Below, piece by piece: positions 2,257-60,801 of a stretch of 64,000 bases of DNA. The translations under genes were made by a program, and so were the position numbers. The first letter of the stretch is position 1. Each line of letters begins with the position of its first letter. Below the pieces are notes generated by a model. The model was given only the letters and a program-made list of their open reading frames with translations, made no database searches and was not told where the DNA came from. Origin of the DNA: Meghimatium bilineatum (lineage: Eukaryota > Mollusca > Gastropoda > Stylommatophora > Philomycidae); the NCBI GenBank assembly GCA_034231615.1, contig CM067317.1, positions 16,266,394 through 16,330,393 of the forward strand, given 5' to 3'.

Positions 2257-5200
2257 CTGCAAAGACAACAAACATAATGGTTAATTCATTACTTCCACTA
2301 ATAAAATAATGACTACTCCAAATTTGAAGAAAAAAAACACAAATGTATAACTATTCCTGTAAAATAATGTTTTTTTCTAGAATGCATATTTCTAAATTAG
2401 ATTAAATCAAATGCTATTTCACATTGTATTATTATATACACAAAATATTTAGTCCGGTTCTGTGGCAGCGAGGTACAAAGTGTCTGTGATGGCCAAGGTA
2501 CAGGGTTCAAATCTCACCACAGGAGATTGTATTTCCGGACTGTTCAGAAAATTTTTTTCTCAGAAAGCAATAGCATAATATTTAACACATTTATATTGCC
2601 TAGAAAATCAATACAGTTAAAAAATGTTTTGTTGATGGCTACATCCTGAATCAATCTCACATCAATCTGAATGGGCACTTAAATCCATATTCTGGATGTT
2701 TTTAAGAAAAATGTGTCAATATTGCATACTAAAATGTTATAATAATTGTATTTAAAGTAGAAAAGCAGCAATTACAGTCAAAGAAATGATTACAACAACA
2801 TTAATATACAGGAACTTGAATGACAAACATTGGATTGGAACAAGACAGCTGAGGTTGGTATCAGGAGAGATAATTTTATTTTCTAGACATAAGACCCCTC
2901 AGTCTGCATGCAATGGAAGTGATGATGTTAACTGGAGTCTCACAAATTCCGCCTCTTTTTCTGCAGAAAAGGACATACAAATAAATGTTATATGGGTGTA
3001 TGCCCCATAAAAGATTCAGGGATTTTGCAAAAGATGCATTTTACAATAAGCTATAGGAAATTCTGGACCACTAGGAATACAGATATATAACAATCGTGAT
3101 GGGTGTATAAATACAAATATAGGTGAAATAAATATGGTGCATGAAAGGATAATGGAACAAAATTAAACTGGGTTTAATTAATCAAAATAAAGAAAACTGG
3201 CAGACCAGCGTATGATCAATGGGCAGTGGTTAGAGGTAGCATTTCCTTACAAAGCTATTCATAAAGCCACATGGGTATCTCTGGATCACAAAGAACCAGA
3301 TCATGTAAGTATCAGTAGAAGATTTAAAAGTGTACTGTCTTATGTCAAAAGTGAACAAAGGTACAAACACATCATCAGACCATATTTACTACACTCTTCA
3401 TCATATGATGGGAGGGATTGAGTATCCATGGGTTTGCCCAGAGTGCATCAATGTCAATTCAGAAAACTAAACTACTGATTGATAAGCTGAAATTTAAACT
3501 GAAGAGGCATCATAACAGTATCACAATATTGAAAAGAAAAAACATGTTTAAATGCCCAGAAACCTTTAAAGAATTCAAGATGAAATTAAGCAACTATTTC
3601 CAAATTCTGCAATAGTTGAGGGTGATCGACTAGAAGTTAACACTTTTAGGATCAGTGTTAAAGAAATGAATATTAAATTCTGTGAAGAGACAGCAAGATT
3701 CAGCAAACTATAGCATAAAGAATAGTTTACTCAATAGAAACTGATGGATATAAAGAGAGAAATGAAAGCAAATATAAATAATAGCCAAACAAGAGAAATG
3801 AAGGTATCTGCACTGGTAGAATACAATTTATCTACAAAGAAGTGAGGAAAAGTGAAAGAAGGATGAATTCAGGTAGAATGGTAAACACAATATGAGAAAC
3901 CTATATCCCCCAAAAGCTGTCAAATGGACAATGTAGGATAGCTAGAGAAAACAAATGTTGGTAGTATGCCCTAATCAGGTTGTAGATTCAAACCAGCATC
4001 TTTTGGCTGTAGTGGTTTTCTAGACCCTAATTTTGTACCATTAGGCGGTTTCTGATCCAGCGGTCTTTGGGCTCATGGCCCTTTGATTCAGTAGGTTGCA
4101 ACAGTCTGGACACATAATTGCCTGTGGTAGGAATTGAACCTTTTACCTTGGCTGACCAAGACACGCTCTGTACAATAGTTAAGTAAATCAAAAACAAGGA
4201 AGGTAGAATAATTGCATCAGAAGAGAACTAGATGAAAGATTTGGCAGAACATTTAAGTGAAATCTTAAATAGATCCATAGCTAAGGATGCATAAAACATG
4301 TCATCAGAAGAAACCTTGCTGAAATGTCAGTTAAACTTTCAAGCAAGGTTGAAATTGAACATGCCACTGACATCAGATAGCAAATAAAGGCACCATTTCT
4401 GGATAGAATCAGATCAGCTAGTCTTGTAAACATTACAATGACAATAGACCCATTAATTTTTCTATCCAATAAGATATAAATTTACTATGTAATAGTGAAA
4501 TAAACAAAGAACATAAGCAATAAAAGCTATTGTAACAGATTTGTTTGTGACTGACAGAATATGTTTGTAATAACTGAATTTACTTATATGCAATTATTAA
4601 CATGGGATATGTTTCAATCATTTATTAAAAAGTCATGTCCCTTGTGCAATCAAAGAACATAAGCAATAAAAGCTATTGTAACAGAGTTGTTTGTAACTGA
4701 CAGAATATGTTTGTAATAACTGAATTTACTTATATGCAATTATTAACATGGGATATGTTTCAATCATTTATTAAAAAGTCATGTCTCTTGTGCAATGTGT
4801 TAATGATGCAACCACTGAGTTTCGATAGTGAATTGTGAACCAGTTCCTTGTGGGATGGGGAAGGTGTTTAGGCATCTTTGACCTTCATTGTTGTTTTCAG
4901 TGAAATCTTCTACACCTTTTCTACCTTATTGATGGGAAAGAAGAATATTGTTTTGTCATCTGATTTTCCTTGTACATTTTAGGGAAGGGAAGTAGGGGTA
5001 TTATTTTGGTATTAGGATTTCAACTGTAGCTTCCTTTTAGTGATGGGAGGGGGTTATTGTTTTGTTATAGGCATTTGACTCAGAAATTACTCTGTGGTCA
5101 TTAACAAATATAAGACCTGGCTGCCAAGACAAAGCAACTAATGAAAATCACATAAAAGGTAAATGTATCAGTTCAAAAGAATAATTTCCAATAAGTCAGT

Positions 5201-28500: not shown

Positions 28501-31500
28501 GTGAGGCCAAACTTGCGACAACCCCCATAGTGGACTGAAGAGATAGAGTCTGCATGGGTAAAGAAAAGGCAAAGTGTCAGGGAGTGGCAACATAAGAGAT
28601 GACAGACACAAGTCACCATGGAAAGCAAAAAAGAGTCTATGAAGATTACCAGTACTATGAAGAAGATCACTGAAACCTTTCAACAATCGTAAAGGAAGCC
28701 AAGAAAGAATGCTGGGATAATTGCGCACAAGATGTTGTAGCCGACAATGCACTATACAGATTTTGGAAATTACACAAGGTAATGAATAAAAAACATACAA
28801 AATTAAATATGTGCTTGAAGGAAAAGTCAGGGCTTATACTAATCACAGATGAGCAGAAGGGCAGCGCTTTCTTCAGCAGATATCTTCAACAATCAGATCA
28901 GAACAATATTGAAGAATGTAAGACTATAGTGGCCACGTTAAGTTTGTTTCACTGTTAACAAACGATATCGCTGATGAGTAACTTGTCTCGTTGGAGGATG
29001 TAAAAGAGACCATAAAGAAAACATCAGATGGTGCACCAGGACCAGACAGATTACGCTACAGCCTCCTGAAAGATATTGCTGATGACCGGCTTAAAACAAT
29101 TGTTGATAATTTCAACACCAGTCTGAAAACAGGACGCATACCAGAAGAGTGGCTACACAGTTACCGTCTCCCCCTGGCAAAGCCAGGCAAAGACACCTCC
29201 GACATCAAGAGTTATTGTGTCATCAGCTTACAAAATGTCTACAGCAAGGTGCTGGAGAGGATAATCACTAGAAGACTGGCATTCGATTTGGAAAATAGAG
29301 ACCTACTTCTTGATACTCTTGGTGCATACAGACCGGGAAGAGACACGACCACAAATGCAGCAATCCTCACCTATGACATCTACAGGGGCTTTCAGGCAAA
29401 GGAGGAAACTGGTCGGCTCGGTCGACCTAGAAGATGCTTACAACAGAATCAGTTTTGGCCAGCTAATACATTTGCTGAGTGAACTCAGCATCAACTTTTG
29501 GATAATTCGATGGATAGCAATAGTGTTAATGTCTAGACCTGTTGCTCTGAGATTGGGATCCTGGACATCAGAGATCAGAACTATAGCACCGGGATTGCCA
29601 ATGGGATCGCCACTATTACCTGTACTCTTTAACATCTACACATACAAAATAGCACAGCTTCAGGAGGCTGGGCCTGGCAGGATACTAATATATTTTGATG
29701 ACCTCTTGCTGTACAAGCACGGCAGAAACAGAAGAGACATGATTGATGGCATCCAGAGTAATCTAGAACATTTGTCGCTCTGTTGTACTAACTACAAGGC
29801 AGGCATCCCACCAAGACAAACATCGTCTGGTTCTCACTGAACAACAGCATAGGCACAGACAAATTACTAGCAGCTAATCTGCATAAGCATCAACATTGAC
29901 AGGGAGCAGACTATGAAATATCTAGGCATCACTTTTGATAGAAGTCTATCTTTCACAAAACATGTGAACAATATCATTCAGAAAGTTGGGAAGTGTGTCA
30001 GTGCAGTCAAAATCATGACACCTGCAGAGATGCTGCAGCGAATCCTTTTTCAGATGATGCGGGCGGTGTATTATCTGTGTTGGACTATGGTTTAGGTTTA
30101 CTGACACTATCACAAACACAGGTGGATAGATTAGAGAGAGTTCAAAACGAGGCCATGAGAAATGTCTTAGGATGCAAAAGAGATACACCTATCATGGCCA
30201 TAAGGTTTCTCCTAGACCTACAGAGCATCAAATCAAGACATAAAATAGCTCAGGTTAAAGAATACTTCAAGGTCGCCAATAATGATCATCACCTCTTACA
30301 CCAATCTCTAGACAACACAAAGGAAAGTCATATCAAGAGAGGAAGATCCTGGATGGCAGAAGGAGAAGATACCCTACTCAGAGTTTGTGAGCTGGAGAAG
30401 TGGGAAGAGGTTGTGAATGGGTAACATTTGGCAAAGAGAGAAAGTTACTGACAACAGTTGTGATACAGATGAGAAGAGAGTGCAGCGACTGGACTGCAAA
30501 CAGAACAGAGGGAATGATCCAAAAATTCATACTGCAGCACTTGAAGCCACATGATACAATAATTTACACAGATGGCTCAGTAACACAAAAAACAAACAGG
30601 TGTAGTTGGGGTTTCGTGGCCTACCAAAATGGCAAGCAATTAGCTGAGAAGTCAGCTGCATACCCCACTACAACATTGAGTATGAGAATGGAAATGGAAG
30701 CGGTGACAGCAGCTCTCATTACATGGATCTACTGTCCTGGTCATGCTGGGGTCATGGGAAACGAAAGAGCTGATGTGTTGGCTGGTAAAGCCTTGGTAAA
30801 CAGCACCGAGATGATAAGAGACAGGATTGAATTGATTAAAGCAGTCATGGATACCCTACGAGAAGACAAGGAGGAAGTCAAACAAGACAATGTACATATT
30901 CAGAGAATGGTAGAAATGTGAGTGACTAGAGGTGATGGGAGAAAGTGCTCCCTCTCGGGAAAGATCAGAAGAACGCGTAATCAGCAACAGACTGGGACAT
31001 TGAGCTTATACACTTTTAGATGGCTGACAGAATGGCAAACAGAGTATATATGGGAATGCCCCCAGTGCTGTAATGCTTGTTCCTAATCAAGAGTCAAGAT
31101 CACCCACTATAATTTGTAAATATTTGTATGACATGCTAATAACCTAATGTTTAATAATATAATTGATAAAATATGATTAATTGTGTTGCTGAGTATTGCT
31201 GATATCATAAATTGTGAAGAGAATTATTGAGTATTGACTGTGCTTTAGATGTACAACTGTTATAACTTACTTTTTTTCAGATCAAGGCAGATCTACAAAA
31301 AGATATGAGCTTAACAACATCCCAACTGGGCTGGTTGGATACAGCTCTACTCCTTCCATATGCATTTATGCAGGTAAATAGGGAACATAAGACCAATATG
31401 TATGTAAGAAATAAAGTAGAGATGTATGCAGGTGTATAAGAACCATTGCTTTCAATAGTGAAATGATGAAAACTAGCATAGTTTGGACATGTGTGCAGAC

Positions 31501-34900: not shown

Positions 34901-37900
34901 AATATGGTTACAGGTATCCACCATTCAGTAAAAAACATTTGTTACTGCATGTTTTCCTGTGAAGGAAGGCTTTCTATGGGCTGTGGAAATAAAGACCGCT
35001 TTGCCATAGCAGATGCAGCGACATGTACAGGAATGATTTTGATTGTACCTCCGATAGAAAATATCCTGTCCCAACCGTGGATTGAACCTCAAGGGTCTGA
35101 GAATGATGTTCTAACAACACGGCCATGCGATCCACTCAGTGAAAGTGGTAAAACATCTGTTTGATATAATTGTAATATTTACCAATGCTGAAGTCTGATG
35201 TGTTCTGCCATTGGTGCAAATGAAAAAATGAAACTGTGACACAACACATTTCCATTCTATGAACTACATCCTACTGGAAATCTAGTATGTCCATTGTCCT
35301 GCTATTTTAGAGATCCTGTTGGAGTTTGAGGATGAACTCAAAAGAAAATCACTATGGTTCTTACCTGTAGTTTTCTGTTGTGTATGTATAATTTTTGTCT
35401 TGATAAAAGCATTTTGGTCGAAATATTGATTGTATGTGTTATCATGTGTGATTAGCAAAACTTTATTACTCTGTTCCTGGATTTATCTGTGCATTACTGT
35501 ATACTTTATACTTTACTGCACTGTTTACTATCGAAAATAGTATTTTATGCTTATGTACTAACTATACATAGTTATTAACCAGTGAACGATATGGTTAGGA
35601 GGCAGAATAAAACATATTTTGAAAAAGCCAGAGCAACAGTGAATCATGAACAAAATTCAAGAAAAGGAGCCTTAATTAAAAAAATTAGCATTTACCCGTA
35701 TGACAGTTAGAAACCACAGCTGTATGTTGTGAAGAGTTTTAAAGTTATCTTATTATCATTATTAAGGGCATTGCAATTACCCCAGAATTTTGTGGTTGTT
35801 GTGAATCTTTAGGTAATATTTAAATTCAGTATGTCATCATTACTATTTTAACAGTTCAGCTGCCAAACTGCTTGCAACTCATTTGAAATTCAATACATTT
35901 GGATTGGGTTGGTTGGTTGCTGATTTAGCGGTAGGCTCATGCCCTGTGATCCAATTTGTATTTGGAGACAACTACAGTTCTCAGAAAGACTAAAAACCCA
36001 ATCAAAGACAAAAGTAAAGATAAGTTTCCTAGACCAGTGTTTTGTAACTGCCTGGCCATAGCCTGGCACCAGCATCATGTGTACCGGGTTTCAGGAGGTT
36101 CCACAATTTTTTACTTTAATCCTTTTAAATTGAAAAAAAATTCCTGGACAAAAAATTATTGAGAATCATGCGAAAATCATATATAAAACAATCCTAATTG
36201 GCATAGGCTATGTGTAGGTAAAAGTAAAGTAAAATTAACTCATTGCACCATTAATGCGGTATTCAGTTATGGCTGGGGCGACCTGGAAACTGTTGCAATC
36301 TGAAAAACATTTCCGTCTCAGCTGGGGAATTAACCAACTAGCACTTAGATGCAAAGCCAGTACACTAACCACTGCACTACATGATAGCAATGTCAATGAC
36401 CAAGTCATGCTTTAAGTTTTTAAAAATTCAGGGATTTCAAAAAATGAAATGATGGTTTATCCTTTGTTCATGAAACAGAGAAATCTCTAATACAATGACA
36501 ACAAAGTCTGGGGTGTCCAGTGTTCTCGACACTGATTAAAATCTGTCATTTTCTCTAAATATGTGTTACCTGTCAACAATGACTAAGTTTATAGAAAAAT
36601 ATGTTTTTCCACTGACATTGGACCATTTAATTAAAATCAAGCCAGTATGTATTCAATTCTCAAATGTAGCATTATTGAAAAATATATCTTTATAAGTTGT
36701 GTATTCTATATATACAAATTTGTGCCTATCTTGGTGTAAATATTATGTAACTCTTAAATGGTATTTTTCATTAAGTCTGTCATTTTCTCTGACTGACACC
36801 TATTGTTCATTCATTTTTATTTTACTCATTTGGACACTGGTGAAAGTGTTTTTGCTGGATCACACATCTTGTAAAGGTGGTCACTAGTTTAAGTGTTTCA
36901 ATACTCTCTTGTGTTTGCTTAAAACAAGTAACATATTCTACCAACCTTTGCATACTTAAAAGATACAAATTCAGTAAAGCCTCACTGTTACTATCACTTG
37001 AAGCTAGAGGGGTTATGTGCTATGAATTATGGACCGATTTTCACATGAAGAAAAATCTCACTATATAGTATATCTACTCTCATGTGACATATTCTTATTA
37101 GAATGTGGACTCCATTAGGGATTCTCTGAACACTCTGTGATTCTGGGCAAGTTGACCTGCTACAGCTAGAGACATGTTTAAGCAATCTGATATATCACTG
37201 CACCATTGTTGTCTTGAGCGCCCTCTTTCTCTGTTAACTCTGCCTTCAGCTGTTAATCTTTTCATGCTCTTTATACATATCTACTAGAAGTGTAATATAA
37301 CATGATGGTTTGTCAGGTAGGCCAATGGTAAGATCTGCAGACTTTCCATGCATGAGTTTCATTTGGCAAATAACATGTTTCATATTTATGTGTGATGTGT
37401 GTTGATTCTTATTGTCTGTCATATACATTACATAATTCATTGCTATAACACTCAAGTGTAGCATCATCACAAGCAAGTATTACCCAACCCTTTGGACGAT
37501 TCAAGTTGTATGTTGAGGCCCTTTCTTGATCATGTACTTTTATAAAAGCCCATAGAAATACACCTTGATGTGCACCTCAATTTCAATATGCACCTCAATT
37601 TCAATATGCACCTCAATTTCAATATGCACCTCAATTTCAATATGCACCTCAATTTCAATATGCACCTCAATTTCAATATGCACCTCAATTTCAATATGCA
37701 CCTCAATTTCAATATGCACCTCAATTTCAATATGCACCTCAATTTCAATATGCACCTCAATTTCAATATGCACCTCAATTTCAATATGCACCTACAAATA
37801 AAACATTGCTTGGATAATTGAAAATTGAGTCTAGAAAGGTAATTTAATGGAAACTGTACAATACAACATAAAAGTCAGGTATCTCTCTCCCCCCACTTCC

Positions 37901-55900: not shown

Positions 55901-58900
55901 ATTTCTAATCACTAGAAATACATCATATATATTATTTGGCTCTGTGATATGACCTTTTGCAGTGCCCCAACTTTACTCCTCATACACTGTGTTGTGTTCT
56001 TGATAGAGACCTTTTGGTCAAAATGTTGATGTATGTGTTTTCCAGTGATTCGCAAAACTTAATTAGCATGTTTTAAATTTTTGCCTGGGAAATATTGAGC
56101 AACCATAGATTTGTCCAGAGTCCTGTCCTGTTGGTTTTTAAGCAATGAGATGTACTGGATGAGACTAAACTAATTCCATAGATGGGGGAGGAGGTAACAA
56201 ATATATACACCTAACCCCACAAAATCAGAACATGACTTTTAGTACTAGGAACCTATCCCGAAAGGTTGATTAAACCTCTTTCTCTCCCCAGAAGCAATTT
56301 TTAACAAAAAAGACAATCAATTTCTTCATAAAATAGAGAAATTCACATGAAATTGCACAAATTACCTGAGGGTGTCAACAGTAAAAGAGATGGATACAGC
56401 AAAAAATTGGAACTTGAAAATGTCCTCAGTGAAGAACAAGTTAGTATATGCTGTATCCAAGAAACACACCTCAGCAGCGACATAGCCTTCAAAATCAGAG
56501 GCTACCAGTGCTACCGGTCTGACAGAAAGGACAGGCGAAAGGGTGGAATTCTGACACTTGTTAAAAACAATATCAGCGCATGTCAGCTGGAAGTATATAT
56601 GGAAGGGGCAGAATACCAGATGCTCCACCTAAAAACAGACAGTGCAGAATTCCATCTCCTGAACTACTACTGCCCAAATGATAAACCATTGGCACTAGAC
56701 ACAATTCCAGACAAAGAGAGACTTATGGTGTGTGGTGACTTCAACAGCCACTCTCAGAGCTGGGGCTACGATCATATCGACAAGAGAGGTGAGGAACTTG
56801 AGAGCTGGCAGGATGAAAATAATCTCATTCTTATTAACCAGCCAGCAGACTTGCCAACCTTCTACTCGAGAGCATGGCACACCACCTCTACACCAGATCT
56901 GGCATTCCACTCACCAGGCTTGGAATGGAACATCACACGTGTTGTTGGAAAGCAGCTTGGAGGTAGTGACCACAGACCAGTATTTCTGGAAATCCACAAT
57001 GAATTTACCAAGGACAGCAGCACGCTCACTAGGTGGAATTATAAAAGGGCAGACTGGAAAATGTACCAGCATTTAACCAGTGTTCTAGTTAAGGATATGA
57101 ACTTGGACAAAGACATCAATAGAGCAGTGAGTGAGTTTAATAGATGTATACTACATGCTGCTAGTAAAACCATACCCAGGGGGGCACGCAAAAACTACAA
57201 ACCCTACTGGAATGATGAACTGGAAAAGCTGCAAAATGAGATGGAAACATCTAGAAAGCAGGCTGAGAACAGACCTAGCCAAGAACATCACAACAAATAT
57301 CAGCAAACAAAGGCTAAATTTCAAAGAGCCAAGTTACAAGCCAGACGGAGCAGCTGGAAAGAAAAAACAGAGTCGCTGAACCTAGAAAGAGATACTAGGA
57401 AATTATGGAAACTTGTAAAACAACTAAATGATGAAGGTACAGGGAGAAATACCAGGATCACACTTTATAAAGATAGACATTTTAACAGGTAAACATGCAG
57501 CTGATTACTTTGCAGATTCCTTTGCAGAAGACAATAACGTCAAAGTCAGCCCAGACAAACAACAGGAGGTTCGAGAGAACCAGCAAAACATTGGACAAGG
57601 TGAACCTATACCTGAAGTCATGGAGGCACCAATCACAATGAGAGAACTGGAGCATGCAATATCCAAATTGAAAATGAAAAAGTCCCCTGGAGCTGATGGA
57701 GTGTCCAATGAAATGATTAGAAACCTGGGAATTGCAGCAAGAGCAAAGCTACTGCAGATCTTTAACACAAGCTGGTCCACAGGTAATGTACCACAGGCGT
57801 GGAGAGAAGCAATAATGATACCACTCCTCAAATCAGGAAAAGATGGCAACATAGTCTCCAACTACAGGCCCATCAGCCTCACAAGCTGTCTATGTAAAAC
57901 AATGGAACGCATTATCAATCTTAGGATGCAGTGGTACCTTGAAAGTGAAAACCTTCTGGTATCACAGCAAGCAGGTTTCAGACAGTGCTACTCTACTGAA
58001 GATCAGGCAACCTACCTCTCCCAAGAGATTGAGGATGCCTTCCAAGAAAAGAAACTGGTACTAGCAGCATGGATAGACCTCAGGAAAGCATTTGATAAGG
58101 TCTGGAAAGAAGGGCTCCTAAAGAAATTGCGAAATTGCAGGGTTAGCTCAAGAATGTACAAATGGGTAAAAGCATACCTGCATAATAGAAGAGCTAGGGT
58201 ACAATTAGATGGTCGCAAGAGCAAGAAAGTTCTACTGCGTCATGGAGTCCCCCAGGGAGGAGTCCTGTCACCCACACTTTTCTTGGTTTACATCAATGAC
58301 CTAGTTGCTGAACTACCACACGGGATCAAAGTGGCAATGTATGCTGACGACCTGGTGATCTGGTGCACGGAAGAACATGCAACAGTGGCCACTAAACAAA
58401 TACAAAGAGGTATCGATACCCTAACATTATGGGCAAATAGATGGTGCGTCAGCATTAACACAGATAAGTGCAGCACTACACTCTTTACCCTCTCACCAAA
58501 ACAAAAAGCTGGTCATATCAAGATAGATGGAGAGCTCTTGAAAGAAGACAAACAACCCACATACCTCGGAGTTACTTTTGATGATAAGCTGACATGGAAG
58601 CAGCACATAAACAAAGCAACAACAAAAGCCAGAAGGAAGTTAGCTATCCTGAGAAAACTAAGTGGAACCACATGGGGAGCCAGTGGAAATATACTCAGTA
58701 AAGTTTACCAGCAAGGCATAAGACCACACCTGGAATATGGTTCAGCTGCGTGGTGTCCTGCATCAAACACCACATTACAAGATCTAGATAAAGTGCAAAA
58801 CCAGGCACTTAGAATAATGTTGGGAGCAATGAAATCAACACCCATAGCAGAGATGCAGAAAATGGGAAGAATGCAAACACTTGGCGAACGAAGAGACACA

Positions 58901-60801
58901 AAAGTACTAATTCAAGCAGAAAAGTTTCAGTGTATGCCAAGTCATCCAATGAAGGAAAGATTCCAAAATCTAGCAATGGGGCGACTGAAAAGGAGCAGCT
59001 TTATCCATCAAGCTAAACGACTTCGCAGACAACTTACAGACCTACCTGATGTTGACAGCCCCTTAAGGTCTGTACCAGAACAAACCCCGTGGAGTGAAAG
59101 CCATGGAATGCCAATATACATTCAGACCCATGTGAAAGGAATACTAAGCGAGGACGAACAGAACAGTGTGCAGCGAAGGACAGTCACCCTCAGTTTCCTG
59201 GATGAGGAATATCCACAAGATATATGGGTCAGAGTGTACACAGATGGGTCAGCACAGAATGCTGTGAGGAATGGAGGTGCAGGTGTATATATAGAATATC
59301 CACACAAGCCTAGAGATACAATCAGAACACCAACAGGAAAATTCTGCAATAATTATGATGCAGAAATCCAGGCAATTAGTGTGGCAGCTAAAAAACTGCT
59401 GAACAACTCTGGCCTACAGCCTGTGGTATTCCTGACAGATGCAAGGTCAGTGCTTCAAGCTCTCCAGTCTGGAAAACTAACAGACTTAAAAAAACTACTT
59501 AGCGAATTGTCTTACCAGTATAGGATAACCATGCAGTGGATACCCTCTCACTGTGGAATACCAGGAAATGAAAAAGCAGACCAACTGGCTAAGGAAGGTG
59601 CTGCCGAAGACCAACCAGATATACCAATCACCTACCATCAGAAAAAACAGATGATCAAGTCAATAAGAAAGCCACAAACACCAACACAAGATGACTATCA
59701 CATTATGAACAGACCAGAACAAGTTATAATTCTACGTCTCAGAACAGGACACAACCGACTCCGCAGTCACATGTATACAAAGTTCAAGATTGGCAACACG
59801 GCCATGTGTACAGGCAGCACAGAGTGCCAAACATATACTTCAAGAGTGTTCTGAGCATGAAACGCTGAGGCAGACATATTGGCCAGAGGAAACAACACTG
59901 GAATCAAAGCTCTATGGGACACTGTATGAACTACAAAAGACAGTGAGTTTTATTAAGGAGACAGAATTACAGATATAGACATGTTTCAAGTGAACGAAAG
60001 AAGAAGAAGAAGAAGAAGAAAACTAGAAATACATCATATATATTATTTGGCTCTGTGATATGGCCTTTTGCAGTGCCCCACTTTACTCCTCATACACTGT
60101 GTTGTGTTCTTGATAGAGACCTTTTGGTCAAAATGTTGATGTATGTGTTTTCCAGTGATTCGCAAAACTTAATTAGCATGTTTTAAATTTTTGCCTGGGA
60201 AATATTGAGCAACCATAGATTTGTCCAGAGTCCTGTCCTGTTGGTTTTTAAGCAATGAGATGTACTGGATGAGACTAAACTAATTCCATAGATGGGGGAG
60301 GAGGTAACAAATATATACACCTAACCCCACAAAATCAGAACATGACTTTTAGTACTAGGAACCTATCCCGAAAGGTTGATTAAACCTCTTTCTCTCCCCA
60401 GAAGCAATTTTTAACAAAAAAGACAATCAATTTCTTCATAAAATAGAGAAATTCACATGAAATTGCACAAATTACCTTTTTTAAGCTTAAATCTCCTTCC
60501 CCCCCCCCCCCCCCCCCCCCATGAAAACATCTATGAACCTGGAACACATATGGATTTGCAACTGGTTATTTGCATATGATAATCAATTATATGTTGTGCT
60601 TTTTTTACTTCAGGCTTTGGAAGCATTGGCACCTGCATTGAAGGTCCCATTATTGGTCTTGTCACTATCTATACTGGATGGTCTGGCATGTTTTACCTCA
60701 TGATTGGCCTGTCAGCCCTTGGAACTTTAGCAACCTACAGAGCAGCTGTTCTAAATTCAAGGATTAATAAGTCAACAGCTGAGTTCATTGATGGTGTATA
60801 A
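25393..60801 (+). CDS. SLC37/GlpT-like sugar-phosphate (organophosphate:Pi) antiporter
   Basis: Thirteen exons join to 1290 nt of coding sequence (429 residues plus TAA) with every splice phase consistent: 25414-25506, 31281-31373, 38086-38166, 38522-38590, 39499-39624, 42940-42999, 43697-43769, 44580-44664, 45805-45895, 47348-47442, 51849-52009, 54669-54743 and 60614-60801. The product is a multi-pass, MFS-type membrane protein. YFLRKPLGV (R26) and VVRYCMYMWLP (R243) resemble the two phosphate-binding arginine contexts of bacterial GlpT (R45, R269). The CWPN motif (about residues 115-118) matches the GWP element of SLC37 proteins, and FGARK is the MFS loop 2-3 motif. By family it should exchange a phosphorylated three- to six-carbon metabolite for phosphate across an internal or plasma membrane. 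The exact substrate is not inferable. Length is near the roughly 430 residues of SLC37A4, shorter than SLC37A1-3. Confidence 0.93.
25850..26410 (+). mobile_element. LINE reverse transcriptase fragment
   Basis: Plus-strand frames show WASAPTIIRLRLSQESQLSP then VLFNV (RT motif B region), a YADN-like motif C in MLYADNILVFKQ, then LGVLFDRGLSSSGKLTHHFK. The order and wording match the RT-RNase H LINE at 28.3-31.1 kb. Frames are broken. Confidence 0.7.
27170..27830 (+). mobile_element. LINE C-terminal tail, split by AT-rich DNA
   Basis: A LMYGSEIWTIN-like block at about 27187-27225 and DAFEMW near 27240 are followed, after about 250 bp of AT-rich insertion, by KYFEHIKRHD and LLKGRQARGRQRYKWES near 27606-27690. 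This is the standard order in LINE RT tails. The element is dead. Confidence 0.65.
27895..28260. repeat. Interspersed repeat with internal degenerate tandem units
   Basis: Units of about 40-50 bp containing GACATCAAA-CATATCAAG-TCTTGTAATGTAGAG recur between 27958 and 28100. A related, shorter copy lies at 38950-39190, sharing GTTGGCCCC, AAAATGC and CTCAT words. The family is unidentified. Confidence 0.55.
28340..31110 (+). mobile_element. RT-RNase H non-LTR retrotransposon, decayed
   Basis: The order is: a decayed endonuclease C-terminus and linker (28340-28980); RT from 28991 (TSDGAPGPDRLRYSLLKDIA, YRPGRDTTTNAA); a frame change near 29400; palm with SVDLEDAYNRI and IYFDDLLLYK (FDD in place of YADD); then LGITFDRSLSFTKHV near 29920. 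RNase H follows at about 30557-30800 (YTDGSV, METEMEAV-like helix, CPGHAGVMGNERAD). The RNase H segment lacks the roughly 45 residues that normally carry the third acidic residue. At least four frame breaks show it is inactive. It shares the transporter's orientation. Confidence 0.85.
31281..31373 (+). CDS. Transporter exon 2
   Basis: The acceptor is ACTTTTTTTCAG. The exon is 31 codons in phase 0 at both ends (IKADLQKDMSLTTSQLGWLD to PYAFMQ), covering the loop and start of TM2. The donor is CAG|GTAAAT. The donor lies inside the 13-bp target duplication of the adjacent LINE. Confidence 0.92.
31381..31733 (+). mobile_element. 5'-truncated LINE 3' end, inserted at a splice donor
   Basis: The 353-bp insert carries the same RT C-terminal tail as 168-600 (ILQGAVEGGRSRGGQ, CAEASNVVP). 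It ends in an ATTG-type repeat. It is bounded by ATGCAGGTAAATA at 31368-31380 and 31734-31746, a perfect 13-bp target duplication that includes the CAG|GTAAAT splice donor of exon 2. Confidence 0.92.
32655..33480 (-). mobile_element. LINE RT C-terminal half, uninterrupted copy
   Basis: The minus strand has LLFADDPSLIY near 33440-33410, then a break, then 165 codons (33258-32761). These include FKYLGSMFSKNGRLDREI, CETW-like CQTWSLTASGQRK, NFFGHLMRMN and KGRPQKRW. The order is normal for a LINE from motif C to the C-terminus. Its relative at 62150-63690 is interrupted by a MITE. Confidence 0.85.
33600..33862 (+). mobile_element. GAA-tailed SINE (family A), long copy
   Basis: The copy starts near GAGAGCAAAGAATGGAAACA, contains GCTGAAGTTAAATGTG, and ends GAGTTTGAGAATAAATGCAGAAGAAGAA. 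The wording matches 47567-47808 and the reverse of 50849-51120. Confidence 0.75.
34235..34520 (+). mobile_element. Degraded LINE tail
   Basis: Plus-strand frames show YGHMMRLSLMTKD and GMVEGGRTHGW in the order of the LINE tails at 168-600 and 31381-31733. The end reads CCTACGATCCTGACGGGTTA then TGGGTTTTATTAG. It is heavily decayed. Confidence 0.55.
34880..35150 (-). mobile_element. tRNA-derived SINE, antisense
   Basis: The minus strand has an A-box-like GTGGATCGCATGGCCGTGTT and a B-box-like GAGGTTCAATCC (about 35083-35094 on the plus strand), followed by a decayed body. It is not a functional tRNA. Confidence 0.5.
35185..35345 (+). mobile_element. GAA-tailed SINE (family A), short copy
   Basis: It has the same layout as 18068-18220: GCTGAAGTCTGATGTGTTC, GAACTACATCCTACTGGAAA, then GTTGGAGTTTGAGGATGAAC, ending in a degraded A-rich tail. 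Confidence 0.7.
35399..35490 (+). mobile_element. Penelope-like end with hammerhead-like core
   Basis: The block CTTGATAAAAGCATTTTGG then TCGAAATATTGAT is followed by GCAAAACTTTATTACTCTG and TTCCTGGATTTATC. This copy keeps the GAAA strand of the hammerhead-type core better than the others. Confidence 0.45.
36250..36395 (-). mobile_element. tRNA-derived SINE, antisense
   Basis: On the minus strand, A-box-like TGCAGTGGTTAGTGTACTGG is followed after about 30 nt by B-box-like TTGGTTAATTCCCC. This is the spacing of a tRNA-type polymerase III promoter. A short decayed body follows. Confidence 0.6.
37569..37795. repeat. 18-bp minisatellite, about 12 copies
   Basis: The unit TGCACCTCAATTTCAATA is repeated almost without change for about 220 bp. 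Because 18 is divisible by 3 and no frame contains a stop, several frames on both strands are open (MHLNFN, CTSISI, HIEIEV-type repeats). It is intronic and not considered coding. Confidence 0.95.
38086..38166 (+). CDS. Transporter exon 3
   Basis: This exon is 27 codons in phase 0 at both ends. The acceptor is TATTCAG and the donor ATG|GTAAGT. It encodes IILGPVGAKFGARKTFGTCL, which holds the G-x-x-x-D/G-R-x-G/A-R/K-like loop between TM2 and TM3 typical of MFS proteins. Confidence 0.93.
38167..38521. other. Transporter intron 3
   Basis: This is a short 355-bp intron with no gene. It contains the hairpin 38452-38495 close to its 3' end. Confidence 0.85.
38452..38495. repeat. Perfect-arm hairpin upstream of exon 4
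   Basis: Arms GATGTGAACAAGTCA and TGACTTGTTCACATC are exact complements. The interior AACAATTATTGTT pairs further, leaving a single bulged C. The 3' arm ends 26 nt before exon 4. Confidence 0.9.
38522..38590 (+). CDS. Transporter exon 4
   Basis: This exon is 23 codons in phase 0. The acceptor is TTGTATTTCAG and the donor CAG|GTACTG. It encodes the hydrophobic VSFGYFSSFGFWFFLLFLNG, a transmembrane segment. Confidence 0.93.
38591..39498. other. Transporter intron 4
   Basis: The intron contains a diverged interspersed repeat at 38950-39190 (related to 27895-28260) and nothing else recognisable. Confidence 0.7.
39499..39624 (+). CDS. Transporter exon 5 (WPN motif)
   Basis: This exon is 42 codons in phase 0. 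The acceptor is GCTTCCCAG and the donor GCA|GTAAGT. It encodes AQCWPNCTKGLLCWF, the counterpart of the QxxGWPxxxxxxxxWF motif of SLC37 proteins. A glycine-rich helix GMFGTCAFAGGVIGT follows. Confidence 0.95.
39625..42939. other. Transporter intron 5
   Basis: The intron contains a probable third MITE copy with local repeats (39934-40750). In 40900-42939 I see no recognisable gene. Small imperfect repeats (AATGATTAATGTAAATG) occur near 42085-42140. Confidence 0.65.
39934..40750. mobile_element. Probable TTAA-type MITE, copy 3, with internal repeats
   Basis: The left edge reads TTTAACCTTCACTAGATTG, matching the CCTTCAC end of the MITEs at 7685-8570 and 62521-63398. The right edge reads GTGCTAAAAGTTTAA, like their CTAAAGG-TTAA end but with a changed terminus. 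Inside, a segment near 40215-40300 is repeated at 40390-40470 and again inverted at 40770-40890. Boundaries are uncertain. Confidence 0.45.
42940..42999 (+). CDS. Transporter exon 6
   Basis: This exon is 20 codons in phase 0. The acceptor is TTTTTTCCCTTAG and the donor GTG|GTGAGT. It encodes VYLQANYGWRSVYFYPSIIV. The GWRxxF/Y-like signature before the end of the N-terminal half is common in the organophosphate antiporter family. Confidence 0.94.
43000..43696. other. Transporter intron 6
   Basis: The intron holds the 5' half of a family-A SINE (about 43080-43240, plus strand). Otherwise it is AT-rich without genes. Confidence 0.65.
43697..43769 (+). CDS. Transporter exon 7
   Basis: This exon is 73 nt, phase 0 in and phase 1 out. 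The acceptor is TATGTTTCAG and the donor AGAG|GTGAGT. It encodes FVMGCLVLLLFNQPEEV, the TM6 end. The following cytosolic loop begins with a short hydrophilic stretch. Confidence 0.92.
43770..44579. other. Transporter intron 7
   Basis: The intron is AT-rich. A GC-richer patch at about 44170-44400 looks like an old insertion but matches nothing I recognise. Confidence 0.6.
44580..44664 (+). CDS. Transporter exon 8 (central loop)
   Basis: This exon is 85 nt, phase 1 in and phase 2 out. The acceptor is ACCTACAAG and the donor TGCC|GTAAGT. It encodes the hydrophilic central loop IDKTRDPQASSSGTSLEKP and LDLWRLP, as expected between the two six-helix halves. Confidence 0.9.
44665..45804. other. Transporter intron 8
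   Basis: The intron holds a minus-strand LINE fragment at 45040-45785 that ends about 20 bp from the exon 9 acceptor. The remainder is AT-rich. Confidence 0.75.
45040..45785 (-). mobile_element. LINE RT fragment next to exon 9
   Basis: The minus strand carries RYENDIPLLSRNPTGVE (degraded YADD region) near 45770-45720. FEYLESTINTTGDCSAEIRK follows, then a HIKRHNCLERLVTKGKISGK-like tail ending near 45050. Stops separate the parts. Confidence 0.7.
45805..45895 (+). CDS. Transporter exon 9 (second substrate arginine)
   Basis: This exon is 91 nt, phase 2 in and phase 0 out. The acceptor is TTTATTATTTGCAG and the donor GCC|GTAAGT. It encodes EISTAVFCLKVVRYCMYMWL then PMYLLQA. R243 sits in the position of the TM7 arginine that binds phosphate in GlpT. 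Confidence 0.94.
47035..47250 (-). mobile_element. LINE C-terminal tail
   Basis: Minus-strand frames read HMDRMLCDSLVYKEYMKRGE and RRAKGRPRV, the HV-RM-D ... GRP pattern of LINE RT tails. Its 5' end coincides with the hairpin 47213-47270. Confidence 0.6.
47213..47270. repeat. 22-bp perfect inverted repeat
   Basis: The 22-nt arm at 47213-47234 (start CTTTATAAACTAATG) is the exact reverse complement of 47249-47270, around a 14-nt loop. It lies at the 5' junction of a truncated LINE tail and 77 bp before exon 10. Confidence 0.95.
47348..47442 (+). CDS. Transporter exon 10
   Basis: This exon is 95 nt, phase 0 in and phase 2 out. The acceptor is TCTTCCCAG and the donor GACAG|GTTGGT. It encodes MAGIFSTVFEIGGVSGSALI ending in FALDR, the AGxxSTxFxxGGxxG helix and SDR-like loop found in SLC37 proteins. 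Confidence 0.95.
47567..47808 (+). mobile_element. GAA-tailed SINE (family A), long copy
   Basis: It contains AAACAAAGACTAGCAACACTG, GCCATGCTGAAGTTGGATGTG, GCTGTAAACCATAACACAGC and a terminal TTGAAAATGAATGCAGACGA. It matches the other long copies but its terminal GAA repeats are lost. Confidence 0.75.
47810..48450 (+). mobile_element. LINE RT C-terminal half
   Basis: Plus-strand pieces EVVNKFHSLGSIITDNL, IGLTSM...LSQRVWKNN, MHCLRGISW and MENG with CKCDLK-like words appear in the order of LINE RT tails. There are several frame breaks. Confidence 0.7.
48527..48710 (+). mobile_element. SINE family B body
   Basis: It shares CACCACAGG, CGGACCGTTCAGAAAGCAAT and TATATTGCCTAGAAAATCA with the copy at 2457-2720, but lacks the tRNA-like head. 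Confidence 0.65.
48700..49020 (-). mobile_element. LINE C-terminal tail, second family
   Basis: The minus strand shows KTNADVLNYAGVKRKIKTN, FLGHAQ, then LIDNTRDRESWRNMIA. This is the order of RT tails of a LINE different from the one at 49020-49960. Confidence 0.65.
49020..49960 (-). mobile_element. Endonuclease-RT LINE, RT palm and tail
   Basis: The minus strand from 49957 has LSEWFEVQSGVKQGYTLSP then HLF (motif B), HELRYADDTVLLSNH (intact YADD at about 49795-49784), [10 protein letters not shown], then HLFGHIKRQ in the tail near 49220. It is a close relative of the 15.5-18.1 kb copy. Confidence 0.82.
50653..50720 (+). mobile_element. Penelope-like end with hammerhead-like core
   Basis: The block CTTGATAAAGACCTTTTGC then TCAAAAATTTGAT has the same layout as the copies at 1959, 35399 and 55999, with a less conserved continuation. 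Confidence 0.4.
50849..51120 (-). mobile_element. GAA-tailed SINE (family A), longest copy
   Basis: Read on the minus strand it starts near GTTGCCAGGGCCAAAAAAGG. It runs through GATGGAGTTGGCTGTCCCAT and AGCCATGCTGAAGTCGTATA, and ends GAACGCAGAAGAAGAAGAAA. At about 270 bp it best represents the full-length family. Confidence 0.8.
51849..52009 (+). CDS. Transporter exon 11
   Basis: This exon is 161 nt, phase 2 in and phase 1 out. The acceptor is TTAATTACAG and the donor CTCT|GTGAGT. It encodes two hydrophobic segments (GIGIFVLISTVSLVLFIV and INSLFMFIAGAFNAGPDILL), TM9 and TM10. The GPDxLL sequence is shared with SLC37-type proteins. Confidence 0.95.
52770..53030 (+). mobile_element. tRNA-derived SINE (family C)
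   Basis: A-box-like GTGGCCTAGTTGGTGG and B-box-like ATGTTCGAAATCATG are spaced as in a tRNA promoter. A distinct body follows (GTCGACTCAGCTGTAAATGA, GGGGAGGTAAAGATTGCAAG, CCCCACCTAATAGTTACTGC) that looks like a conserved SINE central domain. Confidence 0.7.
53262..53395 (+). mobile_element. SINE family B body fragment
   Basis: It shares GCTG(TG)TTGATGGTTACATTC-TGAATAGGATTCGCTA with the distal parts of 2457-2720 and 48527-48710. Confidence 0.5.
54669..54743 (+). CDS. Transporter exon 12
   Basis: This exon is 75 nt, phase 1 in and phase 1 out. The acceptor is TGATTTCAG and the donor AATG|GTGAGT. It encodes GTVPAELVEKQNKNAATATI then GLVN, leading into the GFGSIG motif of exon 13. Confidence 0.95.
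55530..55845 (-). mobile_element. Two adjacent family-A SINE copies, antisense
   Basis: 55530-55680 and 55685-55845 each carry, on the minus strand, a GCTGAAGATGGG/GCCAAAATCAG-like start, GTTGCGCCAAT-type words and a GAGTTTGGGAAAGAACG or AGTTTAAGAATGAAC end. They lie in tandem, the same way round. Confidence 0.65.
55911..56367 (+). repeat. Left copy of a 457-bp direct repeat (probable LINE target duplication)
   Basis: It starts ACTAGAAATACATCAT and ends TTGCACAAATTACCT. Over its whole length it matches 60022-60477 except for one A/G substitution (GATATGACC versus GATATGGCC) and one missing A (GCCCCAACT versus GCCCCACT). It contains a Penelope-like end at 55999-56085. Confidence 0.97.
56347..57492 (+). 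CDS. LINE endonuclease ORF, 5'-truncated with host-derived start
   Basis: This AP-endonuclease domain of a non-LTR retrotransposon is normally used to nick the target DNA for reverse transcription. The 381 codons include CCIQETHL (catalytic Glu, about residue 38), GDFNSHSQSWGYD (about 131), TPDLAFHS and GSDHRPV (Asp-His, about 207). A lysine/arginine-rich linker follows. The first seven codons (MKLHKLP) lie in the duplicated flank 55911-56367, so the element proper starts at 56368 with its own N-terminus missing. The ORF ends at 57492 after a frameshift near 57470-57485. The continuation (ILTGKHAADYFADS) is in the next frame and belongs to the RT ORF. Confidence 0.88.
   Translation: MKLHKLPEGVNSKRDGYSKKLELENVLSEEQVSICCIQETHLSSDIAFKIRGYQCYRSDRKDRRKGGILTLVKNNISACQLEVYMEGAEYQMLHLKTDSAEFHLLNYYCPNDKPLALDTIPDKERLMVCGDFNSHSQSWGYDHIDKRGEELESWQDENNLILINQPADLPTFYSRAWHTTSTPDLAFHSPGLEWNITRVVGKQLGGSDHRPVFLEIHNEFTKDSSTLTRWNYKRADWKMYQHLTSVLVKDMNLDKDINRAVSEFNRCILHAASKTIPRGARKNYKPYWNDELEKLQNEMETSRKQAENRPSQEHHNKYQQTKAKFQRAKLQARRSSWKEKTESLNLERDTRKLWKLVKQLNDEGTGRNTRITLYKDRHFNR
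57428..59854 (+). CDS. LINE reverse transcriptase-RNase H ORF
   Basis: The ORF has 808 codons. RT blocks include KMKKSPGADGVSNEMI (about residue 90), NYRPISLTSCLCKTMERI, LVLAAWIDLRKAFDKVW (motif A Asp), RHGVPQGGVLSPTLF (motif B) and MYADDLVIW (about 304-312, catalytic DD). These are followed by PTYLGVTFDDKLTWKQHI. RNase H begins near residue 602 (VYTDGS) and has AEIQAI, FLTDARS and IPSHCGIPGNEKADQLA, so all four acidic positions are present. The natural C-terminus continues in another frame after about 59810 (AKHILQECSEHETLRQTYWP). The true upstream join is to the endonuclease frame, so the ATG at 57428 is probably not the native start. Confidence 0.9.
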   Translation: MMKVQGEIPGSHFIKIDILTGKHAADYFADSFAEDNNVKVSPDKQQEVRENQQNIGQGEPIPEVMEAPITMRELEHAISKLKMKKSPGADGVSNEMIRNLGIAARAKLLQIFNTSWSTGNVPQAWREAIMIPLLKSGKDGNIVSNYRPISLTSCLCKTMERIINLRMQWYLESENLLVSQQAGFRQCYSTEDQATYLSQEIEDAFQEKKLVLAAWIDLRKAFDKVWKEGLLKKLRNCRVSSRMYKWVKAYLHNRRARVQLDGRKSKKVLLRHGVPQGGVLSPTLFLVYINDLVAELPHGIKVAMYADDLVIWCTEEHATVATKQIQRGIDTLTLWANRWCVSINTDKCSTTLFTLSPKQKAGHIKIDGELLKEDKQPTYLGVTFDDKLTWKQHINKATTKARRKLAILRKLSGTTWGASGNILSKVYQQGIRPHLEYGSAAWCPASNTTLQDLDKVQNQALRIMLGAMKSTPIAEMQKMGRMQTLGERRDTKVLIQAEKFQCMPSHPMKERFQNLAMGRLKRSSFIHQAKRLRRQLTDLPDVDSPLRSVPEQTPWSESHGMPIYIQTHVKGILSEDEQNSVQRRTVTLSFLDEEYPQDIWVRVYTDGSAQNAVRNGGAGVYIEYPHKPRDTIRTPTGKFCNNYDAEIQAISVAAKKLLNNSGLQPVVFLTDARSVLQALQSGKLTDLKKLLSELSYQYRITMQWIPSHCGIPGNEKADQLAKEGAAEDQPDIPITYHQKKQMIKSIRKPQTPTQDDYHIMNRPEQVIILRLRTGHNRLRSHMYTKFKIGNTAMCTGSTECQTYTSRVF
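59790..59978 (+). pseudogene. Frameshifted C-terminus of the LINE ORF
   Basis: The ORF reads SAKHILQECSEHETLRQTYW, LYGTLYELQKTVSFIKETEL and a stop at 59978. This is the usual end of this LINE's protein, separated from the RNase H frame by a one-base-type shift near 59810. The Cys/His pattern CTG...HILQEC resembles the terminal zinc-knuckle-like motif of the family. Confidence 0.75.
60022..60477 (+). repeat. Right copy of the 457-bp direct repeat
   Basis: It follows the GAA-rich 3' tail of the LINE directly and ends TTGCACAAATTACCT before TTTTTTAAGC. It differs from 55911-56367 at two positions only. No TG...CA termini, primer-binding site or polypurine tract support an LTR reading. Confidence 0.97.
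60499..60520 (+). repeat. 22-base poly-C run
   Basis: This homopolymer of C lies about 90 bp upstream of the exon 13 acceptor. Its length may be unreliable in the assembly. Confidence 0.9.
60614..60801 (+). CDS. Transporter exon 13 (stop codon exon)
   Basis: This exon is 188 nt, entered in phase 1. The acceptor is TTTTTTTACTTCAG and TAA is at 60799-60801. It encodes GFGSIGTCIEGPIIGLV, GWSGMFYLMIGLSALGTL and a short hydrophilic tail NSRINKSTAEFIDGV, giving TM11 and TM12. Confidence 0.95.

Follow-up and report, generated by a model that had tools for sequence, protein, structure and literature searches.

Structure of the locus

The window analysed in this study is a stretch of 64,000 nucleotides (C20:16266394-16330393) of the 1.61-Gb genome of Meghimatium bilineatum, which comprises 32 contigs; the window contains no N. 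Towards its end lies a non-LTR retrotransposon (LINE), in which Pfam searches identified endonuclease, reverse transcriptase (RT) and RNase H domains, set between two copies of a long direct repeat (Table 1).

Table 1. Features of the insertion locus; positions are those of the window, and arrows mark the nick
Feature	Positions	Strand	Basis
Left copy of duplicated target segment, 457 bp	55911..56367	+	99.56% identity to 60022-60477; genome search
Right copy of duplicated target segment, 456 bp	60022..60477	+	Alignment; genome search
5'-truncated APE-type non-LTR retrotransposon	56368..60021	+	Starts at about position 398 of the 4,042-bp full-length reference sibling L022
Endonuclease domain, Exo_endo_phos_2 match	56656..56982	+	Pfam PF14529, E 1e-16
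Reverse transcriptase domain, RVT_1 match	57845..58579	+	Pfam PF00078, E 1.9e-39; LINE-1 ORF2p among best PDB matches
RNase H domain	59228..59602	+	Pfam PF00075, E 1.4e-15
3' tail, (GAA)7 plus A, adjoining right copy	60000..60021	+	Sequence
Putative first-strand nick, bottom strand, between 55910 and 55911	55905..55915	-	Top strand TAATC↓ACTAG; T[C/T]↓A sibling motif
5' junction; target end and element share 2 bp of microhomology (CT)	56366..56369	+	Siblings ...AATGCT/GAGGG, window copy ...TTACCT/GAGGG
T-rich DNA past the putative distal top-strand break, then 22-nt C run (60499-60520)	60478..60520	+	Sequence

The first-pass annotation had described a near-identical 457-bp direct repeat around the LINE, and this was confirmed by global alignment. 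Over 457 columns, the only differences between the copies are an A/G substitution at base 42 and a gap of a single base (CCCCAA/CCCCA), and their match within the window (E = 0.0) excludes chance. Both ends of the LINE adjoin the repeats, the 5' truncation point at the left copy and the (GAA)7 tail at the right copy; the left junction is ambiguous by 2 bp (the shared CT) and the right one by about 1 bp (an A common to the tail). A genome search with the repeat brought up 854 first-look candidates, and the 40 that were scored gave 41 matches. The complete unit was found at only two places, both at this locus, and the remaining 39 matches were pieces of approximately 37-150 bp, most of them overlapping positions 60-177 of the query. 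This restriction of the full repeat to one locus among the scored matches indicates that local target DNA, not element sequence, was duplicated with the insertion. No relatives were matched in viral contigs.

Downstream of the right copy, a + strand gene has its last exon at window positions 60613-60798, which match the MFS transporter family weakly (PF07690, E 0.0015, below the cut-off). The product resembles an SLC37-type sugar-phosphate exchanger, and the LINE would sit in the last intron of this gene in sense orientation. Elsewhere, the window holds an 18-bp tandem array at 37571-37793 (12.4 copies, 100% matches, open in frame on both strands) and, at 29265-30918, the remains of a further retroelement, matching RT and RNase H.

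The LINE and its family

In addition to the endonuclease match in Table 1, PF03372 was matched with an E value of 1.8e-12, indicating the AP-like endonuclease of APE-type LINEs. The RT is of the LINE type, and the repeats flanking the element are absent from its siblings, as expected for an element without LTRs. The RNase H domain lies downstream of the RT, which places the element in the RNase-H-bearing LINE group, presumably the I-like group.

When the genome was searched with the LINE, 6,209 first-look candidates came up, of which 40 were scored; most were approximately 99% identical, and the family is young. The family unit comprises about 4,042 bp followed by (GAA)n, the reference copy L022 having 4,042 bp up to its tail. 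Sibling copies show the hallmarks of target-primed reverse transcription (TPRT), namely, (GAA)n tails at a common 3' end, truncations at many positions, target-site duplications (TSDs) of 9-14 bp and two 5'-inverted copies. Upstream of GAGGGTGTC, the siblings run on for another 397 bp, to a common 5' end, CCCCATCGAG, and the truncation of the window copy is therefore real. The earlier description of the element as 5'-truncated, GAA-tailed and ending exactly at the repeats was thus borne out. The protein had raised the suspicion of additional or filler nucleotides at the window copy's 5' junction, which was rejected, since the siblings show this sequence to belong to the element.

An open frame of 1,283 codons starting at position 170 was present in nine of the 15 full-length copies checked. 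The frame of the window copy is broken, with deletions of 2, 3 and 8 bp. The 8-bp deletion, near element position 3845, was shared by all 20 copies fetched from a second search (L068-L087), although the query of that search itself carried the deletion and biased the list towards it, so that no frequency can be read from this number. The 3-bp deletion was also found in L034, L036 and L038, and the 2-bp deletion in no other copy checked. Given this recurrence of the 8- and 3-bp deletions, we discarded the idea that the small deletions point to a poor assembly of the locus or to repair gone wrong. A frameshift close to the end of the open reading frame results from the 8-bp deletion, and copies that carry this deletion may therefore be mobilised in trans. 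We also considered the window copy as a mosaic of two subfamilies. In a subfamily comparison, 13 columns differed, five of them at the cut edge of the alignment and the rest constituting the 8-bp deletion; with this deletion as the only diagnostic difference, a switch was unsupported.

Several siblings have unusual structures. L068 (G000:C16:23147205-23148903) is internally deleted and SINE-like, with element positions 1-186 fused to 3645-4042 and an 11-bp TSD. In L074, element positions of about 1-197 are reversed beside 2764-4042, and in L085, positions of about 4-190 are reversed beside 2966-4042; both 5' inversions are as expected from twin priming. L036 and L038 are inserted in tandem arrays (with a period of about 171 bp at L036), where simple matching reads the TSD length poorly.

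Target-site duplications of sibling copies

The first-pass annotation had proposed that other copies of the LINE be sought and their flanking duplications measured. We carried out this comparison on copies from both searches. Among the 40 copies scored in the LINE genome search, 30 were full-length or nearly so, and 28 of these had TSDs of 9-14 bp. The duplication was exact in 25 copies, including one (L036) within a tandem array, and was recognized by eye in three more: L015, which adjoins a T run, L021, in which one base mismatches, and L055, inside a tandem array. The remaining two were unclear, L038 lying in a tandem array and L049 giving no match. A regular long TSD, as would follow from a fixed stagger like that of R9, was thus not the pattern of these full-length siblings.

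The other ten copies of the first search were simply truncated. Seven of them (L031, L035, L041, L045, L047, L051 and L053) had TSDs of 11-13 bp, and the other three were the window copy, with 457 bp, L029, with 38 bp and seven extra nucleotides, and L037, with none. Pattern searches, described below, added the truncated copy L061, with a 12-bp TSD by eye; L063, from the same searches, sits in a minisatellite and was left out of the count. The second search, made with a 3'-end query, produced 1,130 first-look candidates and gave 40 places including the window copy; 20 of the 39 others were fetched, ten of which were simply truncated with a visible 5' junction. TSDs of 11-13 bp were found in eight of these ten (L069, L071, L072, L075, L079, L081 and L084, with L080 by eye); neither L076 nor L077 had a TSD of at least 6 bp, a 5-bp duplication with two extra bases being possible at L076. 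The count excluded L070, L073, L078, L083, L086 and L087, in which the 5' end was not reached, L082, which is complex, L068, with its internal deletion, and the 5'-inverted L074 and L085, with imperfect or short TSDs.

Overall, ordinary TSDs of 9-14 bp were present in 16 of the 21 simply truncated copies, and five (including the window copy) were abnormal, compared with none of the 28 clear full-length copies (post hoc Fisher p 0.011); if the two unclear full-length copies are called abnormal (2/30 against 5/21), the post hoc p value becomes 0.11. A duplication of more than 38 bp outside tandem arrays was seen in the window copy only, that is, in one of 51 measured copies (30 full-length and 21 simply truncated), within left flanks of 1.0-1.5 kb for most copies of the first search (442 bp for L049 and 388 bp for L055) and of 78-1,084 bp for the counted copies of the second, so that longer duplications could escape. 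The window duplication is about forty times the length usual in the family and, being the only one among the 51, is not a family trait. Long flank matches at L015, L036, L038, L055 and L063 proved to be local tandem repeats and not long TSDs. A very long TSD at L037 was likewise rejected, since 7.5 kb of sequence to its left contained no convincing match to its right flank.

Three of the first ten truncated copies (the window copy, L029 and L037) begin at reference positions 393-398, all with odd target sites. A truncation hotspot at this position was unsupported by pattern searches with a control. The hotspot pattern gave four matches, namely, the window copy, L061, L063 and L065, the last of which is, to judge from its letters, a longer copy carrying a small deletion. 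A control pattern of this first type at position 600 gave three matches (one reading as a deletion) against the four at the test site. The complementary hotspot pattern gave 45 matches, including L029 and L037; judged from the match letters, most of the others extend further upstream and have a base altered.

Nick sites and 5' junction

A motif for the first nick was derived from 31 siblings with clear TSDs (24 full-length and seven truncated), the window copy not being among them. In the motif, T[C/T]↓A, position -2 was T at 26 of the 31 sites, position -1 was C or T at 29, and position +1 was A at 27. The window site scores 4.5 (siblings, -6.6 to 8.3), a score reached by 0.95% of window positions, and thus fits a first nick at an endonuclease site typical of the family. 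The second cut of the siblings showed no strong motif, the TSD ending in T in 18 of 31. At the window locus, the second cut scores like a random position, 35-54% of window positions being as high, depending on where the cut is placed within the CT overlap. Comparison with the siblings also showed that these 2 bp are common to the target end and the element at the left junction. The C run listed in Table 1 starts 21 bp past the putative distal break and may have promoted it.

Age of the insertion and of the duplication

Among 30 aligned copies, the window LINE had private substitutions at five of 3,632 sites (0.14%), in keeping with the 0.02-0.35% of the siblings, except L038 (1.76%). The one substitution between the 456-bp repeats corresponds to about 0.11% per copy. 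From these two values, the LINE and the duplication appear to be of similar, recent age, the agreement being rough because one substitution is a small number. The very recent event suggested earlier from the near identity of the repeats is roughly matched by the private substitutions of the LINE.

Origin of the duplication

An exceptionally long TSD, as first proposed, emerged as the best-supported reading of the locus, in view of the sibling norm of 9-14 bp, the typical first nick, the similar young age of the LINE and the duplication, and the recovery of the complete repeat at this locus only. The duplication was probably produced by TPRT of a young APE-type LINE that started normally, with the top strand broken about 457 nt away and microhomology closing the 5' end. 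We infer the following course of events, including where the distal break came from. The endonuclease would nick the bottom strand at the family-typical site, and the (GAA)n RNA tail would be copied from this nick, as the anatomy of the insertion suggests. Reverse transcription would halt about 397 nt before the 5' end of the RNA. The top strand, uncut at the usual 9-14 nt, would break about 457 nt downstream, probably at a nick, gap or fork break unrelated to the endonuclease. The cDNA end would then be joined to the left target end through the 2-bp microhomology, and fill-in of the single strands of about 457 nt would leave two copies of the target.

The same end product is expected from repair-coupled copying, in which TPRT starts normally and template switching or break-induced synthesis then re-copies 457 bp from the sister or homologue; break-induced copying would be indistinguishable in its product from a wide stagger. 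The microhomology at the 5' junction and the odd truncated copies elsewhere (L029 with its 38 bp and 7 nt; L037, L076 and L077 without a TSD of at least 6 bp) agree with such a route. However, neither junction shows a foreign patch or rearrangement, and a plain distal nick is simpler; we therefore consider repair-coupled copying doubtful, with a small share of the probability. The two differences between the repeats are also what two haplotypes might show, as if haplotypes or repeat copies had been mis-joined in the assembly to create the duplication. Such an artefact is quite unlikely, because chimeric junctions would need to hit both a family-typical nick motif and the exact ends of the LINE, in a window free of N, and siblings of about 99% identity were resolved with clean 9-14-bp TSDs.

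Tandem duplications occur elsewhere in the window, for example at 4505-4796, and the LINE might have been inserted exactly at the junction of a pre-existing 457-bp tandem duplication. This account was rejected as highly improbable: the LINE would have had to insert bluntly, leaving no TSD of the usual 9-14 bp, at the single junction between the copies, which must also be a nick motif, and the LINE and the duplication are of roughly equal age. We gave practically no credence to the repeats as the element's own terminal repeats. They do abut both element ends, but the complete unit occurs only twice among the scored genome matches despite many copies of the family, which contradicts this account, and the repeats are absent from the siblings that were read.

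Returning to TPRT with a distant second break, the unequal distribution of abnormal targets raises a tentative explanation for it. In this genome, when the 5' end of the RNA is not reached, breakage of the second strand is possibly no longer coupled to the LINE machinery. Truncated insertions, and not full-length ones, would then be left to host repair, leading in nature to radical alterations of the target (a duplication of 457 bp, one of 38 bp with filler, or none that is clear). The cutting and joining of the second strand by LINEs are described as still poorly understood (PMC6895275). At this locus, the two steps are cleanly separated in a natural insertion that has been dated: the first nick is canonical, the second break lies about 40-fold too far off, and the family has dozens of ordinary siblings in the same genome. 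The locus also indicates that a single LINE insertion can duplicate hundreds of host bases in the germ line, such events being a source of small segmental duplications.

Comparison with known long target-site duplications

Exceptionally long inferred TSDs can stem from homology-mediated rearrangements, according to a study in dogs (PMC12458276). The example given there lacks a typical cut site, whereas the window locus has one, which speaks against such a rearrangement here. In HeLa cells, radical target alterations are reported to go with 5'-truncated and not full-length L1, and the same paper urges in vivo study of shorter and longer TSDs (PMC2912911); its survey of primate copies took only TSDs of 5-30 bp, unlike the 457 bp found here. 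Nothing comparable in nature for a LINE that bears RNase H emerged from a search of open-licence PMC papers, a negative that speaks only weakly for absence.

The R9 element of bdelloid rotifers, also referenced in PMC2861651, has a TSD that likewise lies far above the usual for LINEs (PMC6895275). Its 126 bp are given in that paper as the stagger of R9, whereas the duplication described here is a one-off in a 9-14-bp family. For human L1 in cultured cells, TSDs are reported to reach 1.6 kb in complemented XPD+ cells and several kb in NER-deficient cells (PMC5223499, which cites Gilbert 2002/2005 and Symer 2002 on long TSDs). TSDs of more than 100 bp are given there as at most 10% of events in HeLa and the majority in NER-deficient cells, where the median was 1,495 bp and a distal, unrelated second nick was proposed to complete the insertion. 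These L1 events resemble the window locus in their APE endonuclease, in TPRT mostly at typical nick sites and in their long TSDs (hundreds to thousands of bp), but they concern an engineered element in human cells, whereas the present insertion is natural, involves a GAA-tailed LINE that bears RNase H, and has no known repair defect behind it. For ZfL2-2 in wild-type chicken DT40 cells, one of 25 insertions had a 1,228-bp TSD and the other 24 altered the target by at most 20 bp (PMC2666801). As at the window locus, a single long TSD stands among ordinary ones, though in another LINE and in a cell-culture assay. The kind of event is thus already known from L1 and ZfL2-2 in cultured cells, and the locus described here provides a natural example from a LINE that bears RNase H.
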